Positions 18,756 to 36,311 of a DNA stretch of 64,000 nucleotides are shown here, piece after piece. Each line of letters starts with the position of its first letter. Position 1 is the first letter of the stretch. The stretch spans positions 37,670 through 101,669 of the forward strand of contig JADFNV010000005.1 in NCBI GenBank assembly GCA_022563195.1. Direction: 5' to 3'. The notes under the pieces are model-generated. The model did not search any database. It saw only the letters and a program-made list of their open reading frames with translations, and was not told the DNA's origin. The stretch is from Pseudomonadota bacterium. GTDB taxonomy: Bacteria > Pseudomonadota > Gammaproteobacteria > Steroidobacterales > Woeseiaceae. The position numbers and the translations under genes were made by a program.

Positions 18756-18806
18756 GATCAGGATCTCCGGAATCAGTTATTCATGTCAGGAAAATTACTT
18801 TAACAG

Positions 18807-18828: not shown

Positions 18829-18864
18829 CAACACCGCGCCCTGCGGCGCAATCGTGGACCGATC

Positions 18865-19758: not shown

Positions 19759-20429
19759 TGACGACCTTCGATCTGAACACGGACTCGGTCCGCGCACTGA
19801 ATCAATCGCTGCATGATGCATCGTCCGGGCACACGTCGGTCACCAATACGGGCGGACAACATTGCATTGCATGCGGTATTGACGCCGCGCTCGAGGTATC
19901 GATCGACGGTCACGTCGGTTATTACTGTGCCGGCATGAACAAGGAAGCGCAGGTCACGATTACCGGCAATGCAGGCCCGGGTGTCGCCGAGAACATCATG
20001 TCGGGGACGGTTCGCGTCAAGGGCAATGCCTCGCAATACGCCGGTGCCAGCGGCCACGGTGGCACGCTGATCATTGAAGGCGACGCCAGCTCACGCTGCG
20101 GCATATCGATGAAAGGCGTCGACATCGTCGTCGCCGGAAGCGTCGGTCACATGAGTGCCTTCATGGCACAAAAGGGACGCCTCGTTATCTGCGGCGATGC
20201 CGGTGATTTCCTTGGTGATTCCATTTACGAGGCATGCATCTACGTTCGCGGCACGGTCGGCGAGCTGGGCGCCGACTGCATAGAGAAGGAAATGACCGAT
20301 CAGCACGTTCAGAAACTCACGCAGTTATTGGCGGCGACGGGTGTCGATGCGGCTGCAGACGAGTTTCGTCGTTACGGCTCGGCTCGAAAGCTCTACCACT
20401 TCAACATCGATCACGCCGATGACTACTGA
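19758..20429 (+). CDS. GXGXG-domain subunit (MgsB/GlxC-like)
   Basis: The start is the ATG overlapping the upstream TGA (TGATG), giving 223 residues. The protein is a right-handed beta-helix of the glutamate synthase C-terminal (GXGXG) type, seen as repeated glycine turns: GNAGPGVAENIMSGTVRVKG, GASGHGGTLIIEGDAS and GDAGDFLGDSIYEACIYVRG. In full-size glutamate synthase this domain holds the others together; here it is a separate subunit, as in MgsB of N-methylglutamate synthase and in GlxC. It has four Cys near the N-terminal side (HCIACGID) that are not part of a known cluster motif. Confidence 0.85.
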   Translation: MTTFDLNTDSVRALNQSLHDASSGHTSVTNTGGQHCIACGIDAALEVSIDGHVGYYCAGMNKEAQVTITGNAGPGVAENIMSGTVRVKGNASQYAGASGHGGTLIIEGDASSRCGISMKGVDIVVAGSVGHMSAFMAQKGRLVICGDAGDFLGDSIYEACIYVRGTVGELGADCIEKEMTDQHVQKLTQLLAATGVDAAADEFRRYGSARKLYHFNIDHADDY

Positions 20430-21738
20430 TAATAAATCGCTGCGCCCATCGGCCACGTTTCCCCGGCATGTGCTCGATGAAATTCATCGCGCAGCGGACG
20501 AAGGCATTTACGAGATTCGGGGGTTCGGCGCAAAACGCAGTCTGCCGGGTTTTGATGACCTTGTTTTCCTCGGCGCGTCGATGTCGCGTTATCCGCTGGA
20601 GGGCTATCGCGAAAAGTGCGCGACCGACGTTGTGTTGGGAACGCGATATGCAAAGAAACCCATTGAGCTGAAGATTCCGATCACCATCGCCGGCATGAGC
20701 TTCGGCGCACTCGGCGCGAACGCGAAAGAGTCTCTCGGCCGCGCGGCAACGGCCATGGGCACGAGTACGACCACGGGCGACGGTGGCATGACCGAGGAAG
20801 AACGTCAGTCGTCGAAGACCTTGATCTACCAGGTACTGCCATCTCGATACGGATTAAACCCCGATGATGTCAGACGCGCCGATGCCCTGGAGGTCGTCGT
20901 CGGACAAGGTGCCAAACCCGGTGGTGGCGGCATGTTGCTCGGCCACAAGATCACTGCGCGTGTGGCCCAGATGCGTGACCTGCCCGAAGACATCGACCAA
21001 CGCAGCGCCTGCCGGCATCCCGATTGGACCGGACCCGATGACCTGAAAATCAAGATTCAGGAACTGCGCGAGATCACCGACTGGCAGATCCCGATTTATA
21101 TCAAGATCGGGGCGGCTCGAGTCAGTTACGACGTCGCATTGGCTGTCAAGGCCGGCGCGGATGTCATTGTCGTCGACGGCATGCAGGGCGGCACCGCCGC
21201 CACACAGGATGTATTCATCGAACACGTCGGTATTCCAACGTTGCCGGCGGTACGCATGGCGGTCGAAGCACTGCAGGAAATCGGCATGCACCGAAAGGTT
21301 CAACTCATCGTATCGGGCGGCATACGCAGCGGCGCCGACGCCGCAAAAGCGCTGGCGCTGGGCGCTGATGCCGTGTCCATCGGCAGCGCCGCGATGGTCG
21401 CACTCGGTTGCAACCGCAAGGTATTTGTCGAAGATTACGCCGCTCTGGGTACGGCGCCCGGCTATTGCCATCACTGTCATACCGGTCGATGTCCTGTCGG
21501 CATCACGACGCAGGATCCGAAACTGGAGGCTCGACTGGAGCCCGAGCAAGGTGCACGATGGGTCAGGAACTACCTGAGCACGATGGTGCTCGAAATTCAG
21601 ACACTGGCTCGCGCCTGTGGCAAGTCACATGTGCTGAACCTGGAACCGGAAGACCTGGTCGCGTTGACGGTTGAAGCAGCGGCCATGGCAAAAGTTCCGT
21701 TGGCCGGAACTGACTGGATCCCGGGCGGCAACAAATAA
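20419..21738 (+). CDS. FMN-binding glutamate synthase-type subunit (MgsC/GlxD-like)
   Basis: The start at 20419 overlaps the previous gene by 11 bases; product 439 residues. It is the synthase domain of GltB as a stand-alone protein: GMSFGALGANAKESLGRAA and TTTGDGGMTEEE near the substrate site, KPGGGGMLLGHKIT, the FMN phosphate loop region VSGGIRSGADAAKALALGADAV, and a Cys triad CHHCHTGRCPVGI for a [3Fe-4S] cluster. Together with the two previous subunits it should catalyse a glutamate-synthase-like transfer of an amine to 2-oxoglutarate or glutamate. In methylamine users this set makes N-methylglutamate. Confidence 0.88.
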   Translation: MTTDNKSLRPSATFPRHVLDEIHRAADEGIYEIRGFGAKRSLPGFDDLVFLGASMSRYPLEGYREKCATDVVLGTRYAKKPIELKIPITIAGMSFGALGANAKESLGRAATAMGTSTTTGDGGMTEEERQSSKTLIYQVLPSRYGLNPDDVRRADALEVVVGQGAKPGGGGMLLGHKITARVAQMRDLPEDIDQRSACRHPDWTGPDDLKIKIQELREITDWQIPIYIKIGAARVSYDVALAVKAGADVIVVDGMQGGTAATQDVFIEHVGIPTLPAVRMAVEALQEIGMHRKVQLIVSGGIRSGADAAKALALGADAVSIGSAAMVALGCNRKVFVEDYAALGTAPGYCHHCHTGRCPVGITTQDPKLEARLEPEQGARWVRNYLSTMVLEIQTLARACGKSHVLNLEPEDLVALTVEAAAMAKVPLAGTDWIPGGNK

Positions 21739-21773
21739 CGAATAACGCAGGCACTGCGACAAGGAGAAGTTCA

Positions 21774-23081
21774 ATGGCAAAAGACCTGGCGGCCACCGCT
21801 AAAGCCAACAACATCCACTATTTCCTGATCAGCTTTGTCGATCTGCTCGGGCAATTACGCGCCAAACTCGTCCCCGCGCGTGCCATTCGCGGTATGCAAA
21901 GAGATGGCGCGGGCTTCGCCGGGTTCGCGGCCTGGCTGGATATGACACCGGCGCATCCGGATATGTTCGCCATTCCCGACCCCGACAGCCTGATCCAGCT
22001 GCCCTGGAAACCCGAGGTCGCATGGCTCGCCGCGGATCTGTGGATGGATGGCAAGCCCGTGGAGGCTTCGCCGCGAGTGGCGTTGAAGCGCCAGATTGCA
22101 GCAGCCACGAAGCGTGGTTTCAGGGTCAAGACGGGCGTCGAGTGCGAATTCTTTCTGACCAATGCCTCGGGCGATGAACTGTCCGATGCGATGGATAAAG
22201 AGGAAAAACCCTGCTACGACCAGTCTGCATTGATGCGCCGCTTCGACGTCATCAGTGAAATCTGCGATGCGATGCTGGGTCTTGGCTGGAATCCGTATCA
22301 AAACGACCACGAGGACGCCAATGGCCAGTTCGAAATGAACTGGGATTACGCGGACTGCCTGGTGACCGCGGACCGGCATACGTTCTTCAAGTTCATGGCC
22401 AAGTCGATTGCCGAGAAACACGGTTACCGCGCGACCTTCATGCCGAAGCCATTCGCAGACCTGACCGGTAACGGCTGTCACGCGCACGTATCCGTGTGGG
22501 ACAAAGCTGGCAAGAAAAACCTGTTCCTGAACAAACGCGACGAGATGGGTTTATCGAAACTCGCGTACCAGTTCATGGCCGGTGTCCTGCACAGTGCCGA
22601 TTCGATGGCCGCAATATTCATTCCTACCGTGAACAGCTACAAGCGCATTGATGCCGCCGTGACGTCATCAGGCGCAACCTGGTCACCGAATGCCATCACT
22701 TACTCCGGCAACAATCGTACCCACATGGTGCGTATTCCCGATGCGGGCCGCTTCGAGATACGTCTGATGGACGGTGCGACCAATCCCTACCTGCTGCAGG
22801 CGGCCGTCGTGGCCGCCGGACTCGACGGTGTTGCGAACAAACGCGATCCCGGAAAACGAATCGATCTCAACATGTACACGGAGCAACACAAGCTCAAGAA
22901 AGTCCGCAAGCTGCCAGCCAATTTGCTGGATGCGATTCGCCTGCTCGACTCGAGCAAGGTTGCGAGATCGGCCTTCGGTGATGAATTCATCGACAGCTAC
23001 GTCAAACTGAAAAATGAGGAGTGGCAACGCTTCACTCGCGAAATCACGCCCTGGGAGCGCGATCACACTCTGGATTGCTGA
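21774..23081 (+). CDS. glnT: Type III glutamine synthetase family protein (GlnT/GmaS-like)
   Basis: A 435-residue member of the glutamine synthetase family in the GlnT/gamma-glutamylmethylamide synthetase branch. The beta-Grasp N-terminus holds HYFLISFVDLLGQLRAKLVP. The catalytic domain has VECEFFL (metal-binding Glu), NDHEDANGQFEMNW, GNGCHAHVSVW (ATP/metal His) and NRTHMVRIPDAGRFEIRLMDG. AAGGAGAA precedes the ATG. It ligates ammonia or methylamine to glutamate with ATP. Next to the MgsABC-like genes the gamma-glutamylmethylamide reaction is attractive, but the usual N-methylglutamate dehydrogenase genes (mgdABCD) are not in the window, so plain glutamine or another gamma-glutamyl amide remains possible. 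Confidence 0.82.
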   Translation: MAKDLAATAKANNIHYFLISFVDLLGQLRAKLVPARAIRGMQRDGAGFAGFAAWLDMTPAHPDMFAIPDPDSLIQLPWKPEVAWLAADLWMDGKPVEASPRVALKRQIAAATKRGFRVKTGVECEFFLTNASGDELSDAMDKEEKPCYDQSALMRRFDVISEICDAMLGLGWNPYQNDHEDANGQFEMNWDYADCLVTADRHTFFKFMAKSIAEKHGYRATFMPKPFADLTGNGCHAHVSVWDKAGKKNLFLNKRDEMGLSKLAYQFMAGVLHSADSMAAIFIPTVNSYKRIDAAVTSSGATWSPNAITYSGNNRTHMVRIPDAGRFEIRLMDGATNPYLLQAAVVAAGLDGVANKRDPGKRIDLNMYTEQHKLKKVRKLPANLLDAIRLLDSSKVARSAFGDEFIDSYVKLKNEEWQRFTREITPWERDHTLDC

Positions 23082-23091
23082 ATCCTGCTTC

Positions 23092-23850
23092 TCAGCTTAG
23101 TTTCGATTTTCTTGCGCGGTCTACCAACTCCTTGCGTTCGGGCGAAGCGAGAGTGGCTCCACGTAACATCTGCCAGTTTTCAAGGTTCGTGTCGCCGGAT
23201 TCGAACGCGACGAGCACGTCCTTGGTCGCAGCAACAGCGTCGCGCGTTCCCGCAAGCACCTGTGATGCCAGCTCACGGGACTTATCCAGTGCGCTACCGG
23301 CCGCTACGACATGCGACGCGATGCCGGCTTGAAACGCGGCATCAGCCGCCAGGCGTTCACCGGTCAGCAGCATAGATCGCAGTGTCAACCCGCTGAGGCG
23401 GTTGCGCCAGCGCAGGATTGCGCGCGGATTGTATAACAGGCCCATGCGTGTAGCCGGCACCTCGAAAAATGCGTCTGCACCTGCCACCAGCAGGTCGCAG
23501 GCCAGTGCGACATCGACTGCGCCGCCCATGCACGGGCCCTCGACCGCCGCTATGACTGGTGCCGGCAACTCCAGCATGGCGTCGACAACTTTCTCGATGG
23601 CCTCGTCCATCGCCAGGTCCTCGATAGTGCCTGTCAGGTCGGCGAGATCCGCCCCGGCACTGAAAGTACTGCCGGCACCGCTGATGATGACGACTCGTGC
23701 CTTCTCTTGCCGGGCAATTTCGAGTTGCGCGGCCAGGTCGTCCAGCAGCACCAGCGACAAGGCGTTGCTGCGCCCGGGATTGTCCAGCACGAGTTCACAG
23801 ATGCCTTCGTCTATCGTGCAGTGCACGTGCGCTTCTTGATGCTCAGTCAT
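23092..23850 (-). CDS. Enoyl-CoA hydratase/isomerase family protein (1)
   Basis: A 252-residue crotonase-fold protein, last gene of a minus-strand catabolic operon. The oxyanion-hole segments are present: SGAGSTFSAGADL in the first and VEGPCMGGAVDVALACDLLVA in the second. In the second segment the glutamates of classical hydratases are replaced (GGAVDVALA, MGLLYNPRAILRW), so dehydratase activity is doubtful; isomerase, hydrolase or ring-cleaving lyase chemistry is as likely. It ends ten bases from the convergent glnT gene. Confidence 0.82.
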   Translation of the reverse strand: MTEHQEAHVHCTIDEGICELVLDNPGRSNALSLVLLDDLAAQLEIARQEKARVVIISGAGSTFSAGADLADLTGTIEDLAMDEAIEKVVDAMLELPAPVIAAVEGPCMGGAVDVALACDLLVAGADAFFEVPATRMGLLYNPRAILRWRNRLSGLTLRSMLLTGERLAADAAFQAGIASHVVAAGSALDKSRELASQVLAGTRDAVAATKDVLVAFESGDTNLENWQMLRGATLASPERKELVDRARKSKLS

Positions 23851-23863
23851 TGACTACTCCCAT

Positions 23864-24664
23864 CTACATCGCGTAGCCGCCACTCACGCTGACCACCTGG
23901 CCAGTCGTATACGACGATTTGTCCGATGCCAGCAGCAACACCAACGGCACGATGTCGCTCGGGACGCCGTGGCGTCGCAACGGGTAACGGCGCACGACTT
24001 TTGCCAGCACTTCGTCATTCTGGAATATCCGGCTCTGGTGGCTGTCGCTATGCCAGAGACTGTTGGCACCCGCATCGTCGCTGCTTTCCGGCAACGTCAA
24101 GCCCGGACAGACGACATTGACCGTCAGCTGGTATTTGCCGAATTCGCGTGCCAGCGCTTTGCTCCAGGCAATGATGCCGCCCTTGCAAGCGCTGTAAACG
24201 GCCTCCTGGTACTCACCGACCCGCCCCGCATCGGATCCGATCGTTATGATCCTGCCGCTGGAACGCGCAATCATCGACGGCGCCACGGCCCTGACACAGT
24301 TAATCGGCCCCCAGAGATTGATCGCGATCTCACGCTCGAAATCTTCGACGGGTTTGTCGAGGAACAAGCCGTTGGCCGTCCAGCCCGCGTTATTGATGAG
24401 GATGTCGATCTGGCCGAAGCGGTCCATCGTGCGCTCCGCCATCCGCTCGACCTGCTCCGCGTTCGTGACATCGGCTTCTATGAACAACGCGTCACCGGGG
24501 CCCGCCTTGCATAATTGCAGCGTGACCTTCTCGGCCTGCACACAGTCGACATCCGCGATAACGACATTGGCGCCCTCTGCCACCAGTCCTTCAGCGATCG
24601 CCTTACCGATATTCGATGCACCGCCAGTGACGATGGCCGTCTTTCCACTCAGTCCCAGATCCAT
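23864..24664 (-). CDS. Short-chain dehydrogenase/reductase
   Basis: Start at 24664, where ATG overlaps the stop of the upstream hydratase gene (TAATG); 266 residues. Classical SDR: cofactor motif TGGASNIGKAIA (TGxxxGxG with Asn/Ile variation), ADVD after beta-2 (NAD-type acidic residue), NNAG, catalytic Ser in IITIGSDAG, YSACKGG (Tyr-x-x-x-Lys) and the C-terminal TGQVVSVSGGYAM. The catalytic tetrad is complete. In this operon it would oxidise a hydroxyacyl-CoA or a cyclic alcohol formed by the neighbouring hydratases. Related enzymes include FabG-like and 2-hydroxycyclohexanecarboxyl-CoA dehydrogenases; which applies is not known. Confidence 0.88.
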   Translation of the reverse strand: MDLGLSGKTAIVTGGASNIGKAIAEGLVAEGANVVIADVDCVQAEKVTLQLCKAGPGDALFIEADVTNAEQVERMAERTMDRFGQIDILINNAGWTANGLFLDKPVEDFEREIAINLWGPINCVRAVAPSMIARSSGRIITIGSDAGRVGEYQEAVYSACKGGIIAWSKALAREFGKYQLTVNVVCPGLTLPESSDDAGANSLWHSDSHQSRIFQNDEVLAKVVRRYPLRRHGVPSDIVPLVLLLASDKSSYTTGQVVSVSGGYAM

Positions 24665-25473
24665 TACTTCTCTTTCCTGTTCTTTTTGGATTTCGCTGCG
24701 CCGCGTTCCTGGAATGCACGCAGTCGCTCTTCGATTTCTTCGCCCGCCTCTTCCCTGTTGCGCTTGAAATAGACCTGCTCGAGCCACAAAGCCTCCGGCA
24801 ACGGCAGCATGAGCCCCTGCAATGCAACTTCCTTGATAAGGCGAACCGCGTTCCTGCCGCCGCGGCAGATCGCGTCGGCCACTTTCAGCGCCTCATCCAG
24901 CAAAGCCTCTGCCGGCACCACTTTTTGCACCATTCTTAATCGTAGCGCTTCGGCCGCATCCACCGATTCGCCCGTTAACATCATCATCATCGCATCACCG
25001 AGGCCTATGAGTCGCGGCAGGAGTTGCGTCCCACCACCACCGGGCAGCGCGCCAAGCAACACCTCGGGAAGACCGAACACGGCTTTTTCAGATGCGATGC
25101 GAATATCGCAACCGAGTGCCAGTTCGCAGCCGCCACCGAAGGCGTAGCCATTGACCGCCGCGATCGTGGGTTTGCTGATTTTCATCGAGGCCGGCGTCAC
25201 CCAGTATCGATGCCGTACTTCCGGCTCCCAGTTGAGGAAATCGGGCGCCTTCTTGATGTCGATGCCGGCGCAAAACGCGCGCCCTTCGGCCGCATAAACC
25301 AGGACCCTCAGATCATCGTTCGCCTCGAATTCCTCGAGCCTCTGCCTATGCTCCTGCATCAGTTCGAGATCGAATGAATTCAAGGCATGCGGCCTGTTGA
25401 GCGTCAGGATCGCTACGCTGTCTCGCGTCTCCCACTTGAGCGGCTCACTGTCGGAATTTTGAGAATCACTCAT
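24664..25473 (-). CDS. Enoyl-CoA hydratase/isomerase family protein (2)
   Basis: A 269-residue crotonase-fold protein. YAAEGRAFCAGIDIKK is the first oxyanion segment; NGYAFGGGCELALGCDIRIA with Glu, and FGLPEVLLGALPGGGGTQLLPRLIG with the second Glu, are as in active hydratases. So this paralogue looks catalytically complete, unlike the one at 23092. The Lys-rich tail ends AAKSKKNRKEK. It overlaps the SDR gene by one base and follows the alpha/beta hydrolase gene by 15 bases, consistent with one mRNA. Confidence 0.87.
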   Translation of the reverse strand: MSDSQNSDSEPLKWETRDSVAILTLNRPHALNSFDLELMQEHRQRLEEFEANDDLRVLVYAAEGRAFCAGIDIKKAPDFLNWEPEVRHRYWVTPASMKISKPTIAAVNGYAFGGGCELALGCDIRIASEKAVFGLPEVLLGALPGGGGTQLLPRLIGLGDAMMMMLTGESVDAAEALRLRMVQKVVPAEALLDEALKVADAICRGGRNAVRLIKEVALQGLMLPLPEALWLEQVYFKRNREEAGEEIEERLRAFQERGAAKSKKNRKEK

Positions 25474-25488
25474 ACCTCGTGTCCGTCC

Positions 25489-26265
25489 TTAAGCTTGTGT
25501 CGAATGCGTGCTGACAAAGTCTGCGATGGCTTGATTCAGTGTATCGCTGGCTTCGAACTGCAGGCAATGCCCAACAGCGTCGATAACGAGCAGTTCGGCG
25601 CCTGGAATGGCTTTCGAGATCATCGCGGCCGCTTTCGGCGGGCAGTACGGATCGTGTTCGCCCGATATGACGAGTGTCGGCTGTCGGATAGCCGCTATCT
25701 GATCGGTCAGGGGTTCGGCCGCAATGCCCAGCATCGCGTGGCAGGCGTTCAGATAGCCCAGCGGATCGATGACGGCCCCTGTACGCAAGTCACTGTATTC
25801 ATTGATCAAATCTTCGTTATCGGTCCAAAAACAGCTGCGCGCATCAGCGTCGTTGGTCTTTGCAAGGCTCGCCAGCCCCCCCGTTTCGACGGCTTCGATT
25901 CGATTCTTAAAAAACTCCTGCCCACCGCGACCGACCGTGCAGGAACTCGCGATAAGCACGAGTCCTTTGCTTAATTCGGGAAAATCCAGCGCGAAACGTT
26001 GGGCAATCACGCCACCCATTGAAAAACCGACGAGCCAGGCCGGAGCGGCCGCATGCGCGCTCAGAAATTGCGCGAGGTCGTCGGCGAATTGCCGCACGGT
26101 GCCATCAGCGGCGCCGGTCGGACTGCTGCCGAAACCGCGCACGTCATAGGCCAAAACATGCATCGAGGATTGCAGGGCCGCCACCTGACGCGACCACACG
26201 TCGCGCGTTTCGGACAAGCCGTGAATCAGGACAACTGTCTCCGCGTCACTCATCGCCGGGCTCAT
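25489..26265 (-). CDS. Alpha/beta hydrolase
   Basis: A 258-residue alpha/beta hydrolase: oxyanion motif LIHGLSE, nucleophile elbow GFSMGG (Ser about 98), an acid in SGEHDPYCPP, and His in AVGHCLQFE. The triad is complete. It resembles 3-oxoadipate enol-lactonase and other C-C or ester hydrolases of aromatic or cyclic compound degradation. No signal peptide is seen. The start could be the ATG at 26265 or the in-frame ATG at 26253. It lies between the luciferase-like oxidoreductase gene (six bases upstream) and the second hydratase. Confidence 0.87.
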   Translation of the reverse strand: MSPAMSDAETVVLIHGLSETRDVWSRQVAALQSSMHVLAYDVRGFGSSPTGAADGTVRQFADDLAQFLSAHAAAPAWLVGFSMGGVIAQRFALDFPELSKGLVLIASSCTVGRGGQEFFKNRIEAVETGGLASLAKTNDADARSCFWTDNEDLINEYSDLRTGAVIDPLGYLNACHAMLGIAAEPLTDQIAAIRQPTLVISGEHDPYCPPKAAAMISKAIPGAELLVIDAVGHCLQFEASDTLNQAIADFVSTHSTQA

Positions 26266-26271
26266 GCATTG

Positions 26272-27276
26272 CTATGCCAGGTCTTTCAGCGGCTTGATGA
26301 TGCCTTCGTTCAATATCTCCATGCGCTGTCGTCGACCGCCCGCGCGAAACGCGAGCGTGACGCCATCGAGCCCGAGCTTTTCGAGCTTTAATATCCTTGC
26401 GAGGCACTCATCGGCTGTGCCGACGAAGGCAAGGTAGTCGACGAGTTCCGGCGACACGGCGCTTTTGTGTCGGGCGTGCTGAGACATATGCTCCAGGCGA
26501 TCATAGGCCTTTGAGGCCGATTCAAAATCCGCTTTGTAGGGATGCAGAAACTCCGGCAACTGTTTCCACTTGCTGAAGGTCTCTGCTTGCGAGGCGACCC
26601 AATGACTGACGTCATCCCTGGCCTGGTCGCGATCGTCGGAAATCGCGATGGCCGCCCACAGGTGCAGCTTGATCTCGTCCATCGATCTGCCTGCCTCCTC
26701 GGCGCCCTTTCGCACGAGATCAATCTGCCAGCTCGTGAACTCTTCGTTGGCGCCGCCCATCAGGATGACGCCGTCGGCCACACGCCCACACAGTTGCAGC
26801 ATGCGTGGCTGATTGGCCGCGATATATATCGGTATCGGACCCTTGCCTGTGACCATGCGATATGGGCCTTTCTCGCCACCTTCAACTTCCTCACCCGAAC
26901 AAAGCCTGCGAATCGTGATGACGGCTTCTTCAAGCTGTTTGATCGTCGCCGGTTTCAGTCCGATCGGGTACACGCCGGTCCAGCCGGTTCCCAAGCCGAT
27001 CAACGCCCGACCATTGCTTATTTCGTTCAGTGCCGTGAACGAGTTGGCGATGATGCTCGGGTGCCGGGTGATCGGATTGGCAACGCCGGTCGAAAGCTGG
27101 ATGGTCGAGGTATTCACCGCACACAGCGTCAACGCCGTGAAGCAGTCCTTCATCGAGAGCTGTACGTCCGCGATCCAAACGCTGTCAAATCCGAGTTCTT
27201 CCGCAGCTTGCACAACTTCGACGTTGTGCATGATCGGCTCACGTTGGCTTATCCCCAGTGACAATCCTACCTTCAC
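26272..27276 (-). CDS. Luciferase-like (LLM class) flavin- or F420-dependent oxidoreductase
   Basis: The track ORF is too long; the GTG at 27276 is preceded by a perfect AGGAGG eight bases upstream, and the family start VKVGLSLG begins there, giving 334 residues. It is a TIM-barrel LLM protein: AAEELGFDSVWIADVQ, a GLGTGWTGVYP phosphate/cofactor region and IPIYIAANQPRML. This superfamily includes F420-dependent reductases (MER, FGD) and FMNH2-dependent monooxygenases. It is only distantly like the FGD protein encoded at 41 kb. With F420 biosynthesis seven kilobases away, F420 is a sensible guess, not a proof. It is the first gene of the minus-strand operon. Confidence 0.82.
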   Translation of the reverse strand: MKVGLSLGISQREPIMHNVEVVQAAEELGFDSVWIADVQLSMKDCFTALTLCAVNTSTIQLSTGVANPITRHPSIIANSFTALNEISNGRALIGLGTGWTGVYPIGLKPATIKQLEEAVITIRRLCSGEEVEGGEKGPYRMVTGKGPIPIYIAANQPRMLQLCGRVADGVILMGGANEEFTSWQIDLVRKGAEEAGRSMDEIKLHLWAAIAISDDRDQARDDVSHWVASQAETFSKWKQLPEFLHPYKADFESASKAYDRLEHMSQHARHKSAVSPELVDYLAFVGTADECLARILKLEKLGLDGVTLAFRAGGRRQRMEILNEGIIKPLKDLA

Positions 27277-27301
27277 CCCGGTATCCTCCTGATCGATAAG
27301 A

Positions 27302-27316
27302 CGGGCAGTATGCCCG
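27302..27316. promoter_or_regulatory. Inverted repeat CGGGCA-GTA-TGCCCG in the divergent promoter region
   Basis: A perfect six-base inverted repeat with a three-base centre, in the 87-bp gap between the divergent luciferase-like and CoA-transferase genes. It is placed to control both. No regulator gene is adjacent. Confidence 0.4.
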
Positions 27317-27363
27317 CATGATTTGGCGAACTCAATTTCGACGGCGTGTGGCGAGAAACGATA

Positions 27364-28641
27364 ATGACAACATGGATCGACGCAGACAAGGTGGCGGAAT
27401 ATCTGCAACCGGGGATGACCGTCTTTGTCGCCGGCGCCACCGCAGAGCCCGGATTGCTCCTGGACGCACTGCGCAACAATCCTGCTTGCTGTGCCGGGAT
27501 TCGCTTTGTCTCGGTATCCGTCCCGGGCATTAATAAGGTCGACTTTGCAGCCTTTCACGAAGACTGTCGATCGACGGCCTTTTTTGCAACGCCCGACAAC
27601 AGAGATGCCATCGCGGCCGGTCGCGTCGATTTCGTGCCGCTGCAATATCGTTCAATATTCGACTACCTGGCCGGGGAAATCAGTTTCGACCTGGTCCTGG
27701 CACAGCTGCCAGCGCCGGATAATAACGGCAGGTTTTCCCTCGGTGTCTGTGCCGATTTTCTGCCCGCCGTGCTCGATAATGCCAAGCTCCTGATTGGCGA
27801 GATCAATAGGCAACAGCCGCGGGCGGCCGATTCACCGACCTGGCCACTATCGAGGCTCGATGTCGCCGTCGAATGCGACCGGCCGGTCGCTACTGTTACC
27901 GAGGCAAGTATCGATCAGGCTGCGATCGACATCGGCCGTCATGTCGCTGAACTCATCAGGGACGGCGATTGCCTTCAGATCGGCATCGGAGGCGTACCCA
28001 ATGCGATTCTCGCTGCGCTGAATGACCGGAACGATCTCGGCATTCATTCCGGACTGGTTTCGGATGGCGTAATGGCATTGGCATCGACGGGAAATATCAA
28101 CGGCAAGAACAAGAGTGTCGATACGGGACGTATTGTCACCGGCACCACGCTGGGCAGTAGTCAACTGATCGACTGGGCCGGCAACAACGCGAAACTGAGC
28201 TTCCGTCCAGTCAGCTACACGCACGATGTCGGCGTTATTCGTCAGCTTGATAACTTCGTATCCATCAACTCGGCATTGGAGGTCGATCTCTTCGGCCAGG
28301 TCAACGCAGACATGTTGCACGGTCGCCAGCAATCGGGTACCGGTGGATCGATCGATATGATGCGCGCAGCGGCTTTATCGCGTGGCGGGCGTTCCATCAT
28401 TGCACTCAAGGCAACCGCCGCTGGCGGCTCGAGGTCACGAATTGTCGCGACACTGTCGCACGATACGGCCGCAACGATCCTGCGGACCGATGTTGACTAT
28501 GTCGTTACTGAATATGGCACGCGGCGCATCCGGCACCTGTCAACCATCGCGCGTGCGGACGCGCTGGCTGAAATTGCCGCGCCGCAGTACCGGGACAGTG
28601 TACGTGATGACTGGACGCGCCTGTCCTTGCATCGAAACTGA
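27364..28641 (+). CDS. Acetyl-CoA hydrolase/transferase family protein (CoA-transferase)
   Basis: Start at ATG 27364 (MTTWIDADKVAEYL), 425 residues. Two-domain family I CoA-transferase of the 4-hydroxybutyrate/succinyl-CoA:acetate type. Seen motifs are GIGGVPNAILAAL (CoA-binding glycine loop), SALEVDLFGQVNAD, with a candidate catalytic Glu at about 306, and SGTGGSIDMMRAA. It would activate an organic acid by CoA transfer or release an acid from its thioester. Being divergent from the beta-oxidation-like operon and sharing its promoter region, it probably provides CoA activation for that pathway. Confidence 0.85.
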   Translation: MTTWIDADKVAEYLQPGMTVFVAGATAEPGLLLDALRNNPACCAGIRFVSVSVPGINKVDFAAFHEDCRSTAFFATPDNRDAIAAGRVDFVPLQYRSIFDYLAGEISFDLVLAQLPAPDNNGRFSLGVCADFLPAVLDNAKLLIGEINRQQPRAADSPTWPLSRLDVAVECDRPVATVTEASIDQAAIDIGRHVAELIRDGDCLQIGIGGVPNAILAALNDRNDLGIHSGLVSDGVMALASTGNINGKNKSVDTGRIVTGTTLGSSQLIDWAGNNAKLSFRPVSYTHDVGVIRQLDNFVSINSALEVDLFGQVNADMLHGRQQSGTGGSIDMMRAAALSRGGRSIIALKATAAGGSRSRIVATLSHDTAATILRTDVDYVVTEYGTRRIRHLSTIARADALAEIAAPQYRDSVRDDWTRLSLHRN

Positions 28642-28657
28642 GGACAAAAGCGGTGCG

Positions 28658-29059
28658 TCACCCGGGTTTCGACGGGCCTCGCTTCAGAAGCGCCTGGATC
28701 ATTTCCTGCAGTCGACCGAAGTCGACAGGCTTGGCGCTGTATTCATCACAGCCCGCTTCCAGCGCCTTGTCGCGATCACTTTCCATCACATACCCTGTCA
28801 CCGCAATGATCGGGAGGTGACTGGTTTTCGCAGTAGCCTTCAATTGACGGGTGGCCTCCCAACCATCAATTTTCGCCAGGCCCAGATCCATAAGAATCAG
28901 GTCCGGGTTATCATTAATGCCCTTGCGGATGGCCTCTTCCCCATCAATGGCTGTTATCACGTCATAGCCTTTCGATACGAGCCAGCGTGACATCATGTCA
29001 CGATTCATATCGTTGTCTTCCACCAGGAGTATTTTTGGCCTGGCGTCCTTCGCGTCTAT
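28658..29059 (-). CDS. Stand-alone response regulator receiver with an altered start codon
   Basis: The track starts at an internal GTG (29023), but this would cut off beta-strand 1 and the start of the acidic pocket. The frame in fact runs on upstream through RPKILLVEDND to an ATA at 29059, seven bases after AAGG; before that is TAA. If ATA was once ATG, the protein begins (M)DAKDARPKILLVED, an ordinary receiver start, and has 133 residues. The rest is complete: acidic pair ED, phospho-acceptor Asp in LILMDLGLAKIDG, Thr in AVTGY and Lys in SAKP. So it is a CheY/DivK-like single-domain regulator that uses AUA, a poor start, or none. It lies alone, convergent with the CoA-transferase. Confidence 0.75.
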   Translation of the reverse strand: MDAKDARPKILLVEDNDMNRDMMSRWLVSKGYDVITAIDGEEAIRKGINDNPDLILMDLGLAKIDGWEATRQLKATAKTSHLPIIAVTGYVMESDRDKALEAGCDEYSAKPVDFGRLQEMIQALLKRGPSKPG

Positions 29060-29147
29060 CGTTTACCTTATTACTTGTCGGCCATATTGCGTCGGATATT
29101 AATATCAATTTTACCGTCCCGTACAAAGTGATTTTCCTTATGAATTT

Positions 29148-29573
29148 CTATCTCGCAATTATGATCCTCGGGTCCAGCACCCCCCCGTCGACGATGCCGA
29201 TATCGTACTTGTAATCGCCACCTTCCTTGGCTGGACCGCCTATGGTCGCAAGGATCTTGCCGTTAGCATTTGAGTTCTTCCTGGTTGCGCCCTCATACGG
29301 CGCACCACCGGGAAAATCGATGTAATAGTCACTGGCCGAACCAACGATATGCCACTCGACCTGGTCACCGATGCACACCGTAATTACGTCGGCATCTCCG
29401 CCATTGGCACCAGCATGAACAACTTTTGTCGGTCGGTTGTTGGTGACGATGATTACCAGCTTGTGCGTGTCGGAATTCTCATCACACGTACTATCGGCAA
29501 ATGAGGGATTTTGCGTCATCGAGACACCAGTCAAAAAGATGGCGCAGGCAATGACCGTTGTTGTAGTTTTCAT
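29148..29573 (-). CDS. Secreted protein, possibly cupredoxin-like
   Basis: A 141-residue protein with a signal peptide (cleavage near SFA-DS) and AGGAG before the ATG. The mature part is mostly beta: LVIIVTNNRPTKVV, VITVCIGDQVEWHIVG, a Tyr- and Gly-rich loop and a C-terminal strand RIIIAR. GDQVEW is a pattern common in cupredoxin-like domains, but the usual copper ligands (His...Cys...His...Met) cannot be placed, so metal binding is not claimed. Two Cys could form a disulfide. It is located 34 bases after the frameshifted TPR gene. Confidence 0.6.
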   Translation of the reverse strand: MKTTTTVIACAIFLTGVSMTQNPSFADSTCDENSDTHKLVIIVTNNRPTKVVHAGANGGDADVITVCIGDQVEWHIVGSASDYYIDFPGGAPYEGATRKNSNANGKILATIGGPAKEGGDYKYDIGIVDGGVLDPRIIIAR

Positions 29574-29606
29574 TGGACTACTCCTTAGAGGATTGAAAGC
29601 TTTTTG

Positions 29607-31557
29607 TCAGTTCTTCTGATTGATCAGGTTTTTGAATCTTTCTTCCGCCATTATGCTGCGGAAGCCGGCGTCGATCGATAACAGACTTGTCTCGTACTGC
29701 AGATCCACCGCCCGCTCCAGTGCAGCCAATGCCTCGACTGTCTCGCCCAGATGAGCATGAATCAATGCGCTATAGTAATGCACATACATGTTATTCGGTT
29801 CTGCAGCGAGCGCCGCCTGAATCAGTTCTCGTGATATTTCGGTTTTGCCGACCCGTGAGTAGTAGAAGGCAAGGTCCGACGTCGTATCGACGTTGTGCAC
29901 GTTAATATCCAGTTCCTGTTCGGCGATCTCGATCGCGCGCCCATAGGCTACACGCGCGGCGTCTTTAAGCAGGTCCGTGTAGAAATACGAGTCGCCAAGA
30001 TTACCCCACAAGCGATAGTCGAGCGGCATGAGTTCTACCGCCTTTGCGTAACGTTGCGCCGCTTTTTTAAAATCGCCGAGATAAAAATACATCGAGCCGG
30101 TGTTTGAATAGGCATTGTGCGTCGGCTTGATCGCAAGCGAGTTATCCCATGCCGCCGCCGCATTCGCGAAATCACCCGCGAGGTAATAAGCGGCTCCAAG
30201 GTTATTCAAGGCGTCGGCATCGTCGTCCGCACGACTCACGTACATCTGGTAGAACTCCGCCGCTTCGAGAAAGCGGCTGTTCGAGAACAGGAAATTTCCC
30301 ATCGCCGCAAAACTCGCCCAGTAACTGACATCGATTTCGATCGCGCGCCGCAGGTTCACCTCCGCCGCGACGATTTGCGACATGGCCAGTTGTGTCTCCG
30401 CCAGGCCGATATGCGCATCGGCGGAGTTTGGGTTAGCAGACAACGCTGTCTCGAACTCGTGCAACGCAACATCGTATTTCCCCGAAGTTCTGTACAAACC
30501 ACCGAGCGCCAGGTGCACTTCGAATGAGTCCGCGGCGTATTCCAGCGCGAGATGACACGCCTGCTCCGCATCGCCAAAGCTGGTCACATCGTGTTCCAAC
30601 TCATAAATCTCCAGGTGTACCTCGCATATCGCAGCGTGTGCGCCAGCAAACTGCGGATCGAGTGCCGTTGCCTGTCGCAGATAGGCAAGCGCCTTTGATT
30701 GCACTTCTTTATCGTTGGGCCGGCGCAAGTAATCCAGCCCACGCAGATAGAGATCGTAGGCCTCGACGTTTTTCGTACCCAGTCGATCAAGTCGCTTTTG
30801 CGCCGCAACGGGCAGTACGACATGTAACGAACGGGCAACCTGCCGCGCAATATCCTCCTGGATCGCGAATACATCGGACAATTGCCGGTCGTAGGTTTCC
30901 GACCAAATCTCGATGCCGTCCTCGCCATCGAACAGCCGTGCCGTAAACACTTAGCCGATTCTCATTTCGCCTCACACTGCCCAGTAGAACGACGTCAGCG
31001 CGAAGCCGTTTCGCCAATGTCGCAACATCGAGAACTGTTCCTTTGAGCTGATTCGTTGTGCTGATCGCGACGACGCGAAACTCATTCAGCCGCACAATCA
31101 GGCTGCGGATTTCCTCAGTCAGGCCGTCGCTGAAGTAATCAGTGTTCAATTCATTCGTTGCATTGGCAAATGGCAACACAGCAATGGCTAGCTGTGAGGG
31201 CTCCCAATGTTCCTGTGATACGTAATAGACAAGGCCGCCACAGGCAACGACCACAACCGCGATCAGCAAAAGGAATTTGGCCCGTGCGAGCTTCGGTGCA
31301 CCACCATCGGTATCCTCGTGGCGCACGACGCCTTCAATCGTGATTTCGTAACCCCAGGCCAGGATTAGCGTGATCGGGAATCCAATAATGATGAGCACAA
31401 TCAATATGGTCATTGCGCTATCTGGAATTGGCAAGCGATCGAAAGTTACGTCAGCAATTTGCAGCAACACCCAGACGACGACCGCATACGCAACCATGGC
31501 GCGAAAGACGCTGCGTTCGCGCAGTTCCCCCATCAAGCTTTGTAGACGCTGTTTCAT
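29607..31557 (-). pseudogene. Frameshifted membrane-TolB/FlgO-like-TPR protein (paralogue 1)
   Basis: Two overlapping track ORFs belong to one gene. The first part starts at ATG 31557 (SD-like GAGGGGG): TM helices at about 20-40 and 48-70, a third near 95-115, then the TolB/FlgO-like domain (IAVLPFANATNELNTDYFSDGLTEEI). Around 30951 the frame breaks; the protein continues in the next frame as VFTARLFDGEDGIEIWSETYDR, followed by about ten TPR repeats to 29607. Removing one A in CTAAGTG gives GSVRRNENRL-VFTARLFDG, which then aligns to the intact paralogue at 42120 with the same length. So a single-base insertion (or a sequencing error) explains it. The intact family is often annotated as adenylate cyclase-like or TPR protein of unknown role. 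Confidence 0.82.
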
Positions 31558-31693
31558 CCGCCCCCTCTGGGTCCCAGCGCTATACCGCAATTTGCAAAGG
31601 CATATTTCTTATTCAAATTATGAGGCAAATCAAGCGCTTCAGCTTTTTTTTATATTGCACCAATTGCGCCTGTATTGCAGTAATTACAGCTTG

Positions 31694-31851
31694 GGAACCT
31701 CTGATTTATTCTGGACGAAGTAGATTGTCTTTAAAATGTTCAGGTTCAAGGCGCGGATCGCACGTAATAGCTGGCTATTGCGAAGATTCGCAACGCAGAA
31801 CCTGGACATTTTGGATGCAAGATACGAGTTCATGAATAGATCAGAGGTTCC
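31694..31851. mobile_element. 158-bp palindromic MITE with IS5-type ends
   Basis: The ends are GGAACCTCTGATTTATTC and its near-exact inverse (one mismatch). A nested pair AAAATGTTCAGGTTC (31733-31747) and GAACCTGGACATTTT (31798-31812) also matches with one mismatch, and AATAGC-TG-GCTATT sits at 31766-31779. All three pairs share one centre, 31772.5, which is the exact midpoint of the element, so the whole element is one long imperfect palindrome. It is flanked by CTTG on the left and CTAG on the right, a near-match to the four-base CTAG duplication of IS5-group elements. No coding capacity; it would depend on a transposase elsewhere. The right flank lies on the stop codon of the acyl-CoA dehydrogenase gene. 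Confidence 0.8.
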
Positions 31852-33018
31852 CTAGTAGGACTTCGGTAAACCGAGCGCCTTTTCGGCGATATGGCACAGG
31901 ATCAACTCGGGACTGACGGGCGCCAGCCGGGCGATCATGACTTCACGCATCAGGCGCTCTACGTGGAACTCCTTCGCATAGCCCATGCCGCCATGCGTCA
32001 TGACGGCACGTGTACAGGCTTGAAAGCCGGCTTCGGCGCCGAGGTATTTCGCGGCGTTAGCTTCAAGCCCGCAAGGTTCCCCGTGGTCATACAAGGACGC
32101 CGCTTTCATCGCCATCAGGAATGCGGCCTCCAGTTCCATCCAGCTTTGCGCCAGCGGATGCTGTATAGCCTGGTTCTGGCCGATGGGACGATCGAATACG
32201 ATGCGCTCCTTCGCATACTCGGCCGCTCGGGCCAACGCGTTCTGCCCGATGCCGATCGCTTCCACCGCGATTAATATGCGCTCCGGGTTGAGGCTGTGCA
32301 GCAGGTAGCGAAAGCCCATGCCCTCTTCACCGATTCGATCTTCGACCGGAACGGGCAAACCGTCGATGAAAATTTCATTGGAGTCGACAGCCGCACGACC
32401 CATCTTCGCTATGAGTCGAACATCGCAGAAATTACGATCCAGGTCGGTGTAGAAAAGCGTCATGCCGTCGGTGGGCTTGGCGCACTCCTCTTTGGGCGTC
32501 GTCCGCGTCAGCAACATGATCTTGTCTGCTTGTTGCGCGGTCGATATCCATACTTTCCGGCCATGCACCCGATAGCGTTCACCGTCGCGTACCGCGCGTG
32601 TCGTTATTGATGTTGTATTGAGTCCCGCATCGGGTTCTGTAACACCGAAGCAGGATTTTCGACGGCCCTTAATCAAATCCGGCAGCCAGCGCTTTTTTTG
32701 TTCCGCAGAACCGAAAACGACGATCGAGTGGGGGCCGAAAATATTGAGGTGCACGGCGGATGCTGCGCTCATCGCCCCGGCTGAACGACCAACAACGTGC
32801 ATCATCAACGCCGCATCGGTCACGCCGAGCCCGGCGCCACCGTATTCTTCCGGCATTGCGATGCCCAACCAGCCTCCGTCCGCGATGGCCTGGTAGAAAT
32901 CCGCGGGGAACTCGCCGCTGGCATCGCGCTCCAGCCAATAATCGTCATCGAATCCGGCACAGATTTTCTGCACTGCATCGCACACGGACTGTTGCTCGGA
33001 GGTCATCGCAAAATCCAT
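31852..33018 (-). CDS. Acyl-CoA dehydrogenase
   Basis: A 388-residue acyl-CoA dehydrogenase with AAGGAG before the ATG. The flavin/substrate motifs are CFGVTEPDAGLNTTSI and VRLIAKMGRAAVDSNEIFIDGLPVP; the C-terminal helical domain has RIVFDRPIGQNQAIQHPLA and MTHGGMGYAKEFHVERLMREVMIARLAPVSPELI. The catalytic base position of the C-terminal domain reads HGGMGYAKEFHVER, so as in several non-classical members the base is not obvious. It oxidises an acyl-CoA to the enoyl-CoA with FAD and would feed the hydratases at 23-25 kb. Its stop codon TAG lies in the target-site duplication of the MITE. Divergent from the amidase/F420 operon. Confidence 0.88.
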   Translation of the reverse strand: MDFAMTSEQQSVCDAVQKICAGFDDDYWLERDASGEFPADFYQAIADGGWLGIAMPEEYGGAGLGVTDAALMMHVVGRSAGAMSAASAVHLNIFGPHSIVVFGSAEQKKRWLPDLIKGRRKSCFGVTEPDAGLNTTSITTRAVRDGERYRVHGRKVWISTAQQADKIMLLTRTTPKEECAKPTDGMTLFYTDLDRNFCDVRLIAKMGRAAVDSNEIFIDGLPVPVEDRIGEEGMGFRYLLHSLNPERILIAVEAIGIGQNALARAAEYAKERIVFDRPIGQNQAIQHPLAQSWMELEAAFLMAMKAASLYDHGEPCGLEANAAKYLGAEAGFQACTRAVMTHGGMGYAKEFHVERLMREVMIARLAPVSPELILCHIAEKALGLPKSY

Positions 33019-33114: not shown

Positions 33115-34557
33115 GTGGATGAATTGATGTACCTGGATGCAAGGGCTCAAGCGGAGCTCGTTCGCAACGGCGAGCTGACGGCGATCGATCTTGTCGATGC
33201 CGCGATCGCCCGCATCGAAGCAGTGAATCCGGCGATCAATGCCGTTATCGCGACTTTTTTCGAACGGGCTCGCGAACAGGCGGCGCTCGCGTCCACTGAC
33301 ACAACGTTCGCCGGCGTGCCCTTCCTGCTCAAGGATATTGTCGCGGAGTACGAAGGCACGCCGATTGCCGAGGGCTCCGCCTTCCTTGTCGGAAACTACA
33401 TCTCGCCACAGGACAGCGAGCTGGTGCGGCGCTATCGGCAGGCAGGGCTGATCATCCTTGGCAAAACCAATACAGCGGAATTCGCACTGTTGCCAACCAC
33501 CGAACCGGCACAATTCGGGGCCAGCCGAAATCCCTGGAATACCGGGCTGACGACCGGGGGATCGAGTGGCGGTTCCGCCGCTGCCGTAGCGGCGGGCATG
33601 GTTGCGGCCGCACACGGCAATGATGGCGGCGGATCGATACGAGTGCCATCAAGTTGCTGTGGCCTCGTCGGCCTCAAACCGACGCGCGGCCGGAATTCCC
33701 TGGGACCCTATTTCGGCGACGTCGCCAACGGCTTGCTCTGCGACCATGTCATGACGCGCTCCGTCAGAGACAGCGCTGCAATTCTTGATGTTACGGCCGG
33801 CACTGCCGCAGGAGACCCCTACTGGCCCCGCACACCTGAACGTGCCTACGCCGACGAAGTCGAACGGGAACCGAGGCGCCTGCGTATCGGCTTATCGACG
33901 CTGCCACCGATCGGTGCGACGGCGCATCCCGACTGTATTGCCGCCGCCGAGGCGACGGCGCGTCTGTGCGAGGAACTGGGCCACGATGTTGTCGAGGCAG
34001 CGCCGCAAATCGATGGTGACAGACTGTTCAAAGCCTTCGGCAAGGTCTGGGCGGGCTTTCTGTGCTGGGCGATCAAGGACTGGGCAATTCGCATTGGCCG
34101 CGAACCCGAGGAGCAATATTTTGAACTGGCGACGTGGCGCACCTATTTGCACGGACAGCGACAGAGTTCGGGCGACTACCTGCTCGCGGTACAGACGCTG
34201 CAGCACATCAGTCGCGATGTGGCGCAATTCTATAATGATTACGACCTTTGGCTCACACCGACACTGGCACAGCCACCGATGCCGTTGGGTTATTTCGACT
34301 ACACGCCAGACACGCGCGATCAACACATCGCGCGACTGGGTGAATACACATGCTTTACCCTGATCGCCAATGTGACGGGTCAGCCGGGCATCTCGTTGCC
34401 ACTGCACTGGAATGACGACAAGCTGCCGATCGGTGTGCAGTTCATCGGACGATATGGCGATGAAGCCACGCTGCTGCAGCTTGGCCGGCAGCTCGAACGC
34501 GCCCTGCCCTGGTCGCATCGTCGGCCGCCGCTTGGCAACGACGCTTCAGAAGCCTGA
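33115..34557 (+). CDS. Amidase signature family protein, first gene of the F420 operon
   Basis: The track ORF begins far upstream in the acyl-CoA dehydrogenase antisense; the likely start is GTG 33115 with AAGG seven bases upstream (an ATG at 33127 is possible), about 480 residues. It is an amidase-signature enzyme with the Ser-cisSer-Lys triad: Lys in FLLKDIV, then [16 protein letters not shown] and [23 protein letters not shown]. Members hydrolyse amides or carbamates; it is most like 6-aminohexanoate-cyclic-dimer hydrolase or aryl acylamidases. The stop is four bases from cofE, so it is probably co-transcribed with F420 biosynthesis. A role in F420 metabolism (for example trimming of the gamma-glutamyl tail) is conceivable but not supported by motifs. 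Confidence 0.82.
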
Positions 34558-34561
34558 AGCA

Positions 34562-35326
34562 ATGGCCACGAGTCTCACGATCCGACTGTTGGAGGGTCTG
34601 CCGATCGTCCGCAGCGGCGACGATCTTTGTGACGTGATCAATATCGCACTCGCCGCATCAGACACGCCGCTGGTCGATGGCGACGTCCTTGTCGTCGCAC
34701 AAAAAATTGTTTCGCTATCCGAAGGCCGGCTGGTACGCCTTGGCGATGTGCAGCCATCGGCTGCAGCACTTGAGCTTGCGGCGGAAACCGAAAAAGACCC
34801 GCGCATTGTCGAGCTGATACTCAAAGAGTCTGTTGATATCCTACGCTCGAAACCCGGCGTGATCATCGCGCGACACATCCTTGGCACTGTCGGCGCCAAC
34901 GCGGGTATCGATCAATCCAATATCGATCACTCTGCCGGCGAATGCGCGCTGTTGCTGCCGGAGAATCCCGACAAGTCAGCCCGACTCCTGCGTAAGGCCT
35001 TAATGGAGAAAACCGGGAAAAAGCTGGGCCTTATCATCAGCGACAGCATGAATCGGCCCTGGCGCCTGGGCTCTATTGGCAGCGCAATCGGTAGCGCCGG
35101 GCTGGCCGTGCTTGACGACAAGCGCGGGCAAAGCGATTTGTTCGGGCGTGAACTCAAGGTGACGCTGTGCAATCGGGCCGATGCGATCGCCGCCGCCGCC
35201 GTGTTGATGATGGGCGAAACCACCGAGCGAACGCCGGTTGCAATCGTTAGCGGCTTGCCAGCGGACGATAGTGCGCAGACCGCAGCCGACTGTATCCGGC
35301 CCCTCTCGGACGACTTGTTCCCCTGA
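34562..35326 (+). CDS. cofE: Coenzyme F420-0:L-glutamate ligase CofE
   Basis: Start at ATG 34562, 254 residues, the length of archaeal CofE. Family segments seen: GDVLVVAQKIVSLSEGRLV near the N-terminus, then GVIIARHILGTVGANAGIDQSN, LGLIISDSMNRPWRLGSIGSAIG and a C-terminal Ala-rich stretch with ERTPVAIVSG. CofE adds glutamate through gamma-linkages to F420-0 with GTP. In mycobacteria the same function is the N-terminal half of FbiB, whose C-terminal half is a nitroreductase-like FMN domain; that half is absent here. cofD starts one base after the stop of this gene. Confidence 0.92.
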   Translation: MATSLTIRLLEGLPIVRSGDDLCDVINIALAASDTPLVDGDVLVVAQKIVSLSEGRLVRLGDVQPSAAALELAAETEKDPRIVELILKESVDILRSKPGVIIARHILGTVGANAGIDQSNIDHSAGECALLLPENPDKSARLLRKALMEKTGKKLGLIISDSMNRPWRLGSIGSAIGSAGLAVLDDKRGQSDLFGRELKVTLCNRADAIAAAAVLMMGETTERTPVAIVSGLPADDSAQTAADCIRPLSDDLFP

Positions 35327-35327: not shown

Positions 35328-36311
35328 ATGGCAACGCCGCGTTATCTTGCGATCACGGGTGGCATCGGCGGCGCGAAGCTCGCGCTCGGCCTGTCGAGAA
35401 TTCTCGGCAGCGACGAACTCGCATTCATCGTCAATACCGGCGATGACTTCGAACATCTCGGTCTGCACATATCGCCGGACATCGATACGCTGGTCTATAC
35501 ACTGGCCGGCGAAAGCAACCTGGATTCGGGCTGGGGACGCAGCGGCGAGAGCTGGCAGTTCATGGCAGCCGTCGCCGCTCTCGGGGGCGAGACCTGGTTT
35601 CGCCTCGGTGACAAAGACCTGGCGATGCACGTCGAGCGTACGCGCCGGCTGGTCGAAGGCCAGAAACTTACGCCCGTGACCGCATGTTTGGCGACTGCGC
35701 TCGGCGTAACGCATCGCATCCTGCCGATGTCAGATGACGCGATCCGCACCGTGGTTCACACGACCCAGGGTGATCTGGATTTCCAGCACTATTTCGTGCG
35801 CGACAAATGCGAGCCCATTGTGACCGGCTTCGATTTCTCAGGCGCCGAGCACGCCAGCTTGACGTCGGAGCTCGCCGAATGGCTGCAGTCGGATGACTTG
35901 TCGGGCGTCATCGTGTGTCCGTCGAATCCATTCGTCAGCATCGATCCGATCCTGGCCGTGCCAGGACTGCGTGAAGCGCTGCAACACTGTGCGGCACCGG
36001 TCATCGCCGTGTCCCCTATTGTCGGTGGTCTGGCGATACGAGGACCCACCGTAAAGATGATGCAGGAAATGGCGATCCCGCCGACGACGGCCTGGGTGGC
36101 CGGGCATTACCGCGACTTTCTGCAGGGATTCATAGTCGATACGCTCGACGCAGCGATCAAACCCGACATCGAGGAGCTGGGCATCGCCAGTCACGTCACG
36201 CAGACCGTCATGCAAACGCTCGATGACCGCGTACATCTGGCCGATGCCTGCCTTGAGTTTATTGCGCAGCTCAGCCAAAGTCAGCGGGCAACGACCAAAA
36301 TTAAGGAATGA
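35328..36311 (+). CDS. cofD: F420 biosynthesis transferase CofD
   Basis: Start at ATG 35328, 327 residues. The N-terminal Rossmann-like GDP-binding start YLAITGGIGGAKLALGLSRIL and IVNTGDDFEHLGLHISPDIDTLVYTLAGE, with GWGRSGESWQFM, are the CofD/FbiA signature. The later part has VCPSNPFVSIDPIL and SPIVGGLAIRGPTVKMM. The enzyme transfers the phospholactyl (or phosphoenolpyruvyl or phosphoglyceryl) group from the guanosine-diphosphate-activated form to Fo, making F420-0 or a variant. It ends four bases inside cofC. Confidence 0.94.
   Translation: MATPRYLAITGGIGGAKLALGLSRILGSDELAFIVNTGDDFEHLGLHISPDIDTLVYTLAGESNLDSGWGRSGESWQFMAAVAALGGETWFRLGDKDLAMHVERTRRLVEGQKLTPVTACLATALGVTHRILPMSDDAIRTVVHTTQGDLDFQHYFVRDKCEPIVTGFDFSGAEHASLTSELAEWLQSDDLSGVIVCPSNPFVSIDPILAVPGLREALQHCAAPVIAVSPIVGGLAIRGPTVKMMQEMAIPPTTAWVAGHYRDFLQGFIVDTLDAAIKPDIEELGIASHVTQTVMQTLDDRVHLADACLEFIAQLSQSQRATTKIKE

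Follow-up and report, generated by a model that had tools for sequence, protein, structure and literature searches.

The window analysed here comprises 64,000 nucleotides of contig JADFNV010000005.1 (assembly GCA_022563195.1, positions 37,670 to 101,669) from a probably marine gammaproteobacterium of the Woeseiaceae. It carries a catabolic gene island that combines LLM, a luciferase-fold protein, with CoA-linked enzymes and with genes for the synthesis and recycling of cofactor F420. The island probably serves the aerobic, CoA-linked catabolism of a cyclic acid with one F420H2-dependent reduction, F420H2 being provided from glucose 6-phosphate. Computation gives good support to LLM functioning as an F420H2-dependent reductase in CoA-linked catabolism; this support covers the gene identities, the conservation of the gene set, the association with F420 synthesis and the F420-type fold of LLM; the direction of the reaction, the order of steps and the substrate class we infer.

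The LLM gene starts with a GTG at 27276 behind an AGGAGG Shine-Dalgarno sequence and encodes 334 amino acids, replacing an open reading frame of 457. The protein belongs to PF00296 (195 bits). The profiles of methylene-tetrahydromethanopterin reductase (Mer, 171 bits) and of the F420 family TIGR03842 (165 bits) scored more than 100 bits above those of flavin mononucleotide (FMN) families (about 28-48 bits). Sequence and fold searches of the PDB placed Mer first, then FGD and Adf, with FMN enzymes behind. The top matches of an AlphaFold model (pLDDT 84) were eight Mer chains with TM scores up to 0.84, compared with 0.65-0.72 for FMN enzymes. Judged from sequence and model, LLM is very probably an F420-dependent enzyme and probably the consumer of the F420H2 made by the adjoining genes.

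LLM as a true Mer was rejected, on account of replaced active-site acids and scores under the NCBIfam Mer equivalog cut-offs (171 of 276 and 158 of 349 bits); the nearest solved Mer structures share 28% identical amino acids with LLM. Gly64-Val65 aligns with Gly61-Val62 of jMer and is invariant across eight homologues. In jMer, this pair is the site of a non-prolyl cis-peptide that backs F420 (PMC11094777). The catalytic Glu6 of jMer is replaced by Ser6 (placed by visual alignment, which leaves a gap of two residues behind this position) and the pterin-contacting Asp96 by Trp99. With the Gly-Val pair kept and both acids replaced, the cofactor site looks Mer-like, but the substrate site does not.

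All five F420 synthesis functions (cofC, cofD, cofE, cofG and cofH) scored above cut-off in the window. From the amidase through cofE, cofD, cofC, cofGH, gnd and pgl to FGD, each gene starts within 5 bp of the preceding stop or overlaps it. A npdG-like protein (58145-58855) was rejected as an F420-NADP reductase that could act as reducing partner, its score being under the cut-off.

LLM and F420 synthesis occur together beyond the window. cofGH was found in 12 of 99 relatives, but in all eight other LLM-positive genomes examined, two of which have a distant LLM (about 38-45%). Within the genus of the relative G362 (31 genomes), all three LLM carriers encode cofGH, compared with one of the 28 non-carriers (Fisher p 0.0009); these co-occurrence tests ignore shared ancestry. 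The initial annotation, made from the window's letters, would have taken distance between cluster and F420 genes in relatives as evidence against its reading. The cluster is indeed distant from them in the two closest relatives, G488 and G588, where the F420 genes lie on other contigs (in G588 as the same cofE-FGD run), but adjacent in G362 and G397, and F420 synthesis is encoded by each of the LLM carriers examined. The co-occurrence is constant, whereas the adjacency varies. G397 has a closely packed, partly overlapping run of a CoA-ligase-like gene, the molybdenum (Mo) hydroxylase, ECH2, cofC and cofGH, so another family shows a physical link to F420 with different genes. Loci L022, L047 and L048 are from genomes with cofGH and LLM in which neither FGD nor an F420-NADP reductase was recognised.

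The catabolic genes proposed by the initial annotation are all present and have Pfam matches: LLM (Bac_luciferase), an alpha/beta hydrolase, two crotonases (ECH_1), an SDR, a CoA-transferase (AcetylCoA_hyd_C) and an acyl-CoA dehydrogenase. LLM, alpha/beta hydrolase, ECH1, SDR and ECH2 form a tightly packed run on the minus strand, in which the SDR start overlaps the ECH1 stop; the gene of the CoA-transferase-fold protein is divergent from this operon. As with LLM, the starts of the SDR and amidase genes were revised, which gives 23864-24664 and 33115-34557. The core of LLM, hydrolase, crotonase, SDR, in most cases CoA ligase, and acyl-CoA dehydrogenase recurs in five further genomes, which represent three other genera and two families, in the same gene order at about 60-85% identity. 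The order LLM-hydrolase-ECH1-SDR occurs in G488 and G588 (same family, other genera; LLM 79-81% identical) and in G362, G382 and G397 (another family; LLM 71-73%). Across the five loci, the SDR is 73-82% and ECH1 68-79% identical. The acyl-CoA dehydrogenase is present in all five relatives (78-84% identical in four loci) and the CoA ligase in four. A chance neighbourhood was rejected, as the gene order recurs in relatives and co-occurs with cofGH.

The conserved set extends beyond the interval 23092-33018 first proposed, which holds the core genes but leaves out amidase and Mo hydroxylase. Near the cluster, G488, G588, G362 and G397 encode a Mo hydroxylase of the xanthine dehydrogenase family; the G382 contig stops short of this part. 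The window's subunits are 62-90% identical to the copies beside the same cluster in G488 and G588. The same-family clusters retain the amidase; in G488 its gene and that of the large Mo hydroxylase subunit overlap tail to tail, but in the window the two are separated by the F420 run plus two more genes. In G588, the amidase stop is overlapped by an MTHFR-family gene (L041:15515-16411), at the place that cofE takes in the window. Contrary to the initial description, the acyl-CoA dehydrogenase gene does not directly adjoin cofE: the amidase, itself part of the catabolic set, intervenes. A Halioglobus metagenome-assembled genome is the one named relative from the LLM search of genome contigs. Its LLM (65% identical) is adjoined by a ligase-hydrolase fusion, an SDR, a distant amidase (32%) and an ECH2 homologue.

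Several of the catabolic enzymes have altered residues. ECH1 keeps both hydratase glutamates in the motifs GGGCE and LPE. The crotonase initially described as lacking them is ECH2, which has GGAVD and VPA instead of GGCE and PE; the replacements E144 to D and E164 to A occur in all six loci aligned. ECH2 is likely a hydrolase or isomerase, not a hydratase. The Glu of the HTEM motif is the catalytic residue of 4-hydroxybutyrate CoA-transferases. The CoA-transferase-fold protein has a glycine at this position (HSGL) in the window, G488 and G588, which makes normal CoA-transferase chemistry doubtful; it may perhaps be a hydrolase. In the alignment, the acyl-CoA dehydrogenase has no Glu at the usual position of medium-chain acyl-CoA dehydrogenase, but one at the isovaleryl/long-chain position, which we take to be the catalytic base. 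Together, the altered residues of ECH2, the acyl-CoA dehydrogenase and the CoA-transferase-fold protein point to hydrolytic steps of an unusual kind, perhaps ring opening. The amidase had 349 bits to NylA, the 6-aminohexanoate cyclic dimer hydrolase, which acts on a cyclic amide; the next PDB match had 174 bits. The Mo hydroxylase has the domains of the xanthine dehydrogenase family, with all equivalogs (xanthine dehydrogenase, 4-hydroxybenzoyl-CoA reductase) below cut-off.

In the proposed pathway, the Mo hydroxylase would hydroxylate the ring; from an N-heteroaromatic ring, this would give a lactam or pyridone. The acid may be activated to a CoA thioester by a ligase, as encoded in the relatives. 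LLM would then move a hydride from F420H2 onto a C=C or C=N bond of the ring. Hydrolytic ring opening could be catalysed by the amidase, the alpha/beta hydrolase, the glutamate-less crotonase or the CoA-transferase-fold protein, and beta-oxidation by acyl-CoA dehydrogenase, ECH1 and SDR would follow. cofEDC-cofGH would supply F420, which FGD would re-reduce at the expense of glucose 6-phosphate while Pgl and Gnd draw the product onward. The CoA-dependent pathway of the initial annotation fits this scheme, on a ring compound, and F420 consumption by LLM is very probable from profiles, structures and co-occurrence. Its placement of LLM as the first step is unsupported, because Mo hydroxylase, amidase and the relatives' CoA ligase belong to the set. 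The suggested parallel to sterol degradation found no backing: no sterol-ring genes were seen at the annotated loci, in searches that did not target such genes.

The NylA-like amidase, the N-methylglutamate genes and the carnitine-type module nearby lean towards a nitrogen-containing, possibly N-methylated, ring acid, and an N-heteroaromatic substrate is tentatively favoured. N-methylglutamate genes are located near the cluster in the window, G488 and G588. Subunits of GlxB, GltB3 and GltB2 type followed by a type III glutamine synthetase match the mgsABC-gmaS layout, with gmaS not distinguished from other type III synthetases; the same gene set and layout has been described (PMC6237917). These enzymes could possibly take up released methylamine. 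Between the mgs genes and the Mo hydroxylase, G488 and G588 have a carnitine-type module (L045:13418-20000) of BCCT transporter, BKACE, ADP-forming CoA ligase and 3HCDH. A relative of this CoA ligase recurs beside the Mo hydroxylase in G397. Literature searches on F420 in pyridine or isonicotinate breakdown, on homarine breakdown and on F420 in Halieaceae returned nothing relevant.

Homology to enzymes for alicyclic acids leans the opposite way. The same pathway may act on an alicyclic or other nitrogen-free ring acid (cyclohexanecarboxylate-, terpenoid- or furoate-like), with amidase and methylamine genes incidental or serving a side group, a reading that is possible but on the doubtful side. 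BadH is the nearest model to the SDR, cyclohexanecarboxylate-CoA ligase is the second-best match of the relatives' ligase, the acyl-CoA dehydrogenase matches cyclohexane-carbonyl-CoA dehydrogenase models, and the Mo enzyme is closest in the PDB to 4-hydroxybenzoyl-CoA reductase. Cyclohexanecarboxylate (Ali/Bad) and furoate (Hmf) degradation have a similar layout of ligase, dehydrogenase, hydratase, SDR and ring opening, and Hmf also pairs a Mo hydroxylase with a ligase, as the relatives of the island do. All these scores are far under the family cut-offs, however, and we know of no F420 enzyme in the Ali/Bad or Hmf pathways. Two further points argue against a nitrogen-free substrate: the amidase kept in clusters of the same family has a cyclic amide hydrolase as its nearest match, and methylamine genes lie near three loci.

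LLM could also work in the other direction, as a dehydrogenase that reduces F420 while oxidising an alcohol or hydroxyacyl intermediate. The related enzymes FGD and Adf reduce F420, and no F420-reducing enzyme was recognised in G362, G382 and G397. This direction is unlikely, since FGD already reduces F420 in the window, the closest relatives of LLM are Mer-type reductases, and the search of the window's genome (83% complete) yielded no PF00296 proteins other than LLM and FGD, hence found no other LLM-type consumer. That LLM is an FMN-dependent monooxygenase beside unrelated F420 genes is very improbable: PF00296 includes FMN monooxygenases, some of them catabolic, and the F420 genes lie on separate contigs in G488 and G588, but F420 enzymes lead the profile, PDB and fold searches, LLM co-occurs strictly with cofGH, and no flavin reductase partner was seen among the annotated cluster genes.

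Some observations weigh against an F420H2-dependent reduction in the catabolism of a cyclic acid. The relatives' CoA ligase is not in the window. The large subunit of the Mo hydroxylase is 30% identical between the window and G362, and the enzymes of the two families may act on different compounds. The 21-kb Halioglobus locus L017 showed no Mo hydroxylase. G488, G362, G382 and G397 lack FGD, and no F420-NADP reductase scored above cut-off there. The window's genome is a draft bin with 5% contamination, and a weak PF04075 protein encoded elsewhere in it could be another user of F420H2.

Positions and strands of the features in the window, with the models or residues that characterise them.
Feature	Positions	Strand	Remarks
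mgsABC-gmaS-like N-methylglutamate synthase and gamma-glutamylmethylamide synthetase	18754-23081	+	neighbours in three genomes
ECH2 crotonase-fold protein	23092-23850	-	PF00378; both hydratase glutamates replaced
SDR oxidoreductase	23864-24664	-	nearest NCBIfam model BadH, below cut-off
ECH1 enoyl-CoA hydratase	24664-25473	-	two catalytic glutamates kept
alpha/beta hydrolase, PcaD-like	25489-26265	-	Ser-Asp-His present
LLM, Mer-like luciferase-fold hydride transferase, predicted F420H2-dependent reductase	26272-27276	-	PF00296
4-hydroxybutyrate CoA-transferase-fold protein	27364-28641	+	HSGL replaces HTEM
insert: response regulator, small secreted protein, TPR protein	28658-31590	-	outside the system
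acyl-CoA dehydrogenase	31852-33018	-	putative base Glu at isovaleryl/long-chain type position
amidase-signature hydrolase	33115-34557	+	nearest solved structure NylA; heads F420 gene run
cofE, F420-0:L-glutamate ligase	34562-35326	+	TIGR01916 251 bits, cut-off 181
cofD, 2-phospho-L-lactate transferase family	35328-36311	+	TIGR01819 271 bits, cut-off 257
cofC, guanylyltransferase	36308-36946	+	TIGR03552 152 bits, cut-off 105
cofGH (FbiC), FO synthase	36943-39318	+	NF006687 1154 bits, cut-off 1018
gnd, 6-phosphogluconate dehydrogenase	39323-40318	+	TIGR00872 374 bits, cut-off 297
pgl, 6-phosphogluconolactonase	40315-41031	+	TIGR01198 156 bits, cut-off 124
FGD	41025-42029	+	TIGR03554 505 bits, equivalog cut-off 420
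Mo hydroxylase, xanthine dehydrogenase family	45271-48890	-	large 45271-47628, 2Fe-2S 47522-48055, FAD 48012-48890

The insert separates the CoA-transferase-fold gene from the acyl-CoA dehydrogenase gene, which are adjacent in G588 and G488. Its TPR protein (29607-31590) is split over two frames near 30945, an apparent frameshift or assembly error. A TPR protein and a Schlafen/AlbA-domain gene lie between FGD and the Mo hydroxylase (42120-45256); no such genes were observed in the clusters of the relatives. The mgsABC-gmaS-like genes, together with an HTH-cupin regulator (18126-18755) beside them, show synteny with G488. A further gene (50932-52545) encodes a Rieske domain fused to a glutamate-synthase FMN domain, with 35% identity to the mgsC homologue of G488. 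Promoter and terminator scans performed no better than shuffles.

Picrate degradation works with an F420-NADPH reductase. The picrate reductases (Fht) of Rhodococcus and Nocardioides are luciferase-like hydride transferases that hydrogenate a ring with F420H2 in aerobic catabolism and thus provide a precedent for LLM (PMC8498797). The island differs from them by the CoA-linked set, the Mo hydroxylase, the amidase, the pairing with FGD and a host outside the Actinobacteria. The window FGD resembles the mycobacterial enzyme, which reduces F420 with glucose 6-phosphate, in passing the family cut-off, and differs in that its gene shares a run with cofE, cofD, cofC, cofGH, gnd and pgl. FGD was listed for Actinomycetales and Chloroflexi and, with question marks, for Alphaproteobacteria and Thaumarchaeota; Gammaproteobacteria are not mentioned in the text of that paper (PMC8498797).

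As of 2021, no F420H2-dependent reductase or F420-reducing dehydrogenase had been experimentally studied in bacteria outside the Actinobacteria (PMC8498797). The presence of synthesis, regeneration and a single obvious consumer together makes the role of F420 in such a bacterium directly testable, by means of a single enzyme and a limited choice of candidate substrates, and the second family, in which linkage to F420 genes takes its own form, provides an independent replicate. A more specific scenario, held to be rather unlikely, is the dearomatisation of a heteroaromatic or other aryl acid by an aerobic proteobacterium, in which sugar-derived F420H2 pays for the ring reduction and the resulting ring is then hydrolysed. 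If true, bacteria outside the Actinobacteria would have their first F420-dependent pathway of defined function.

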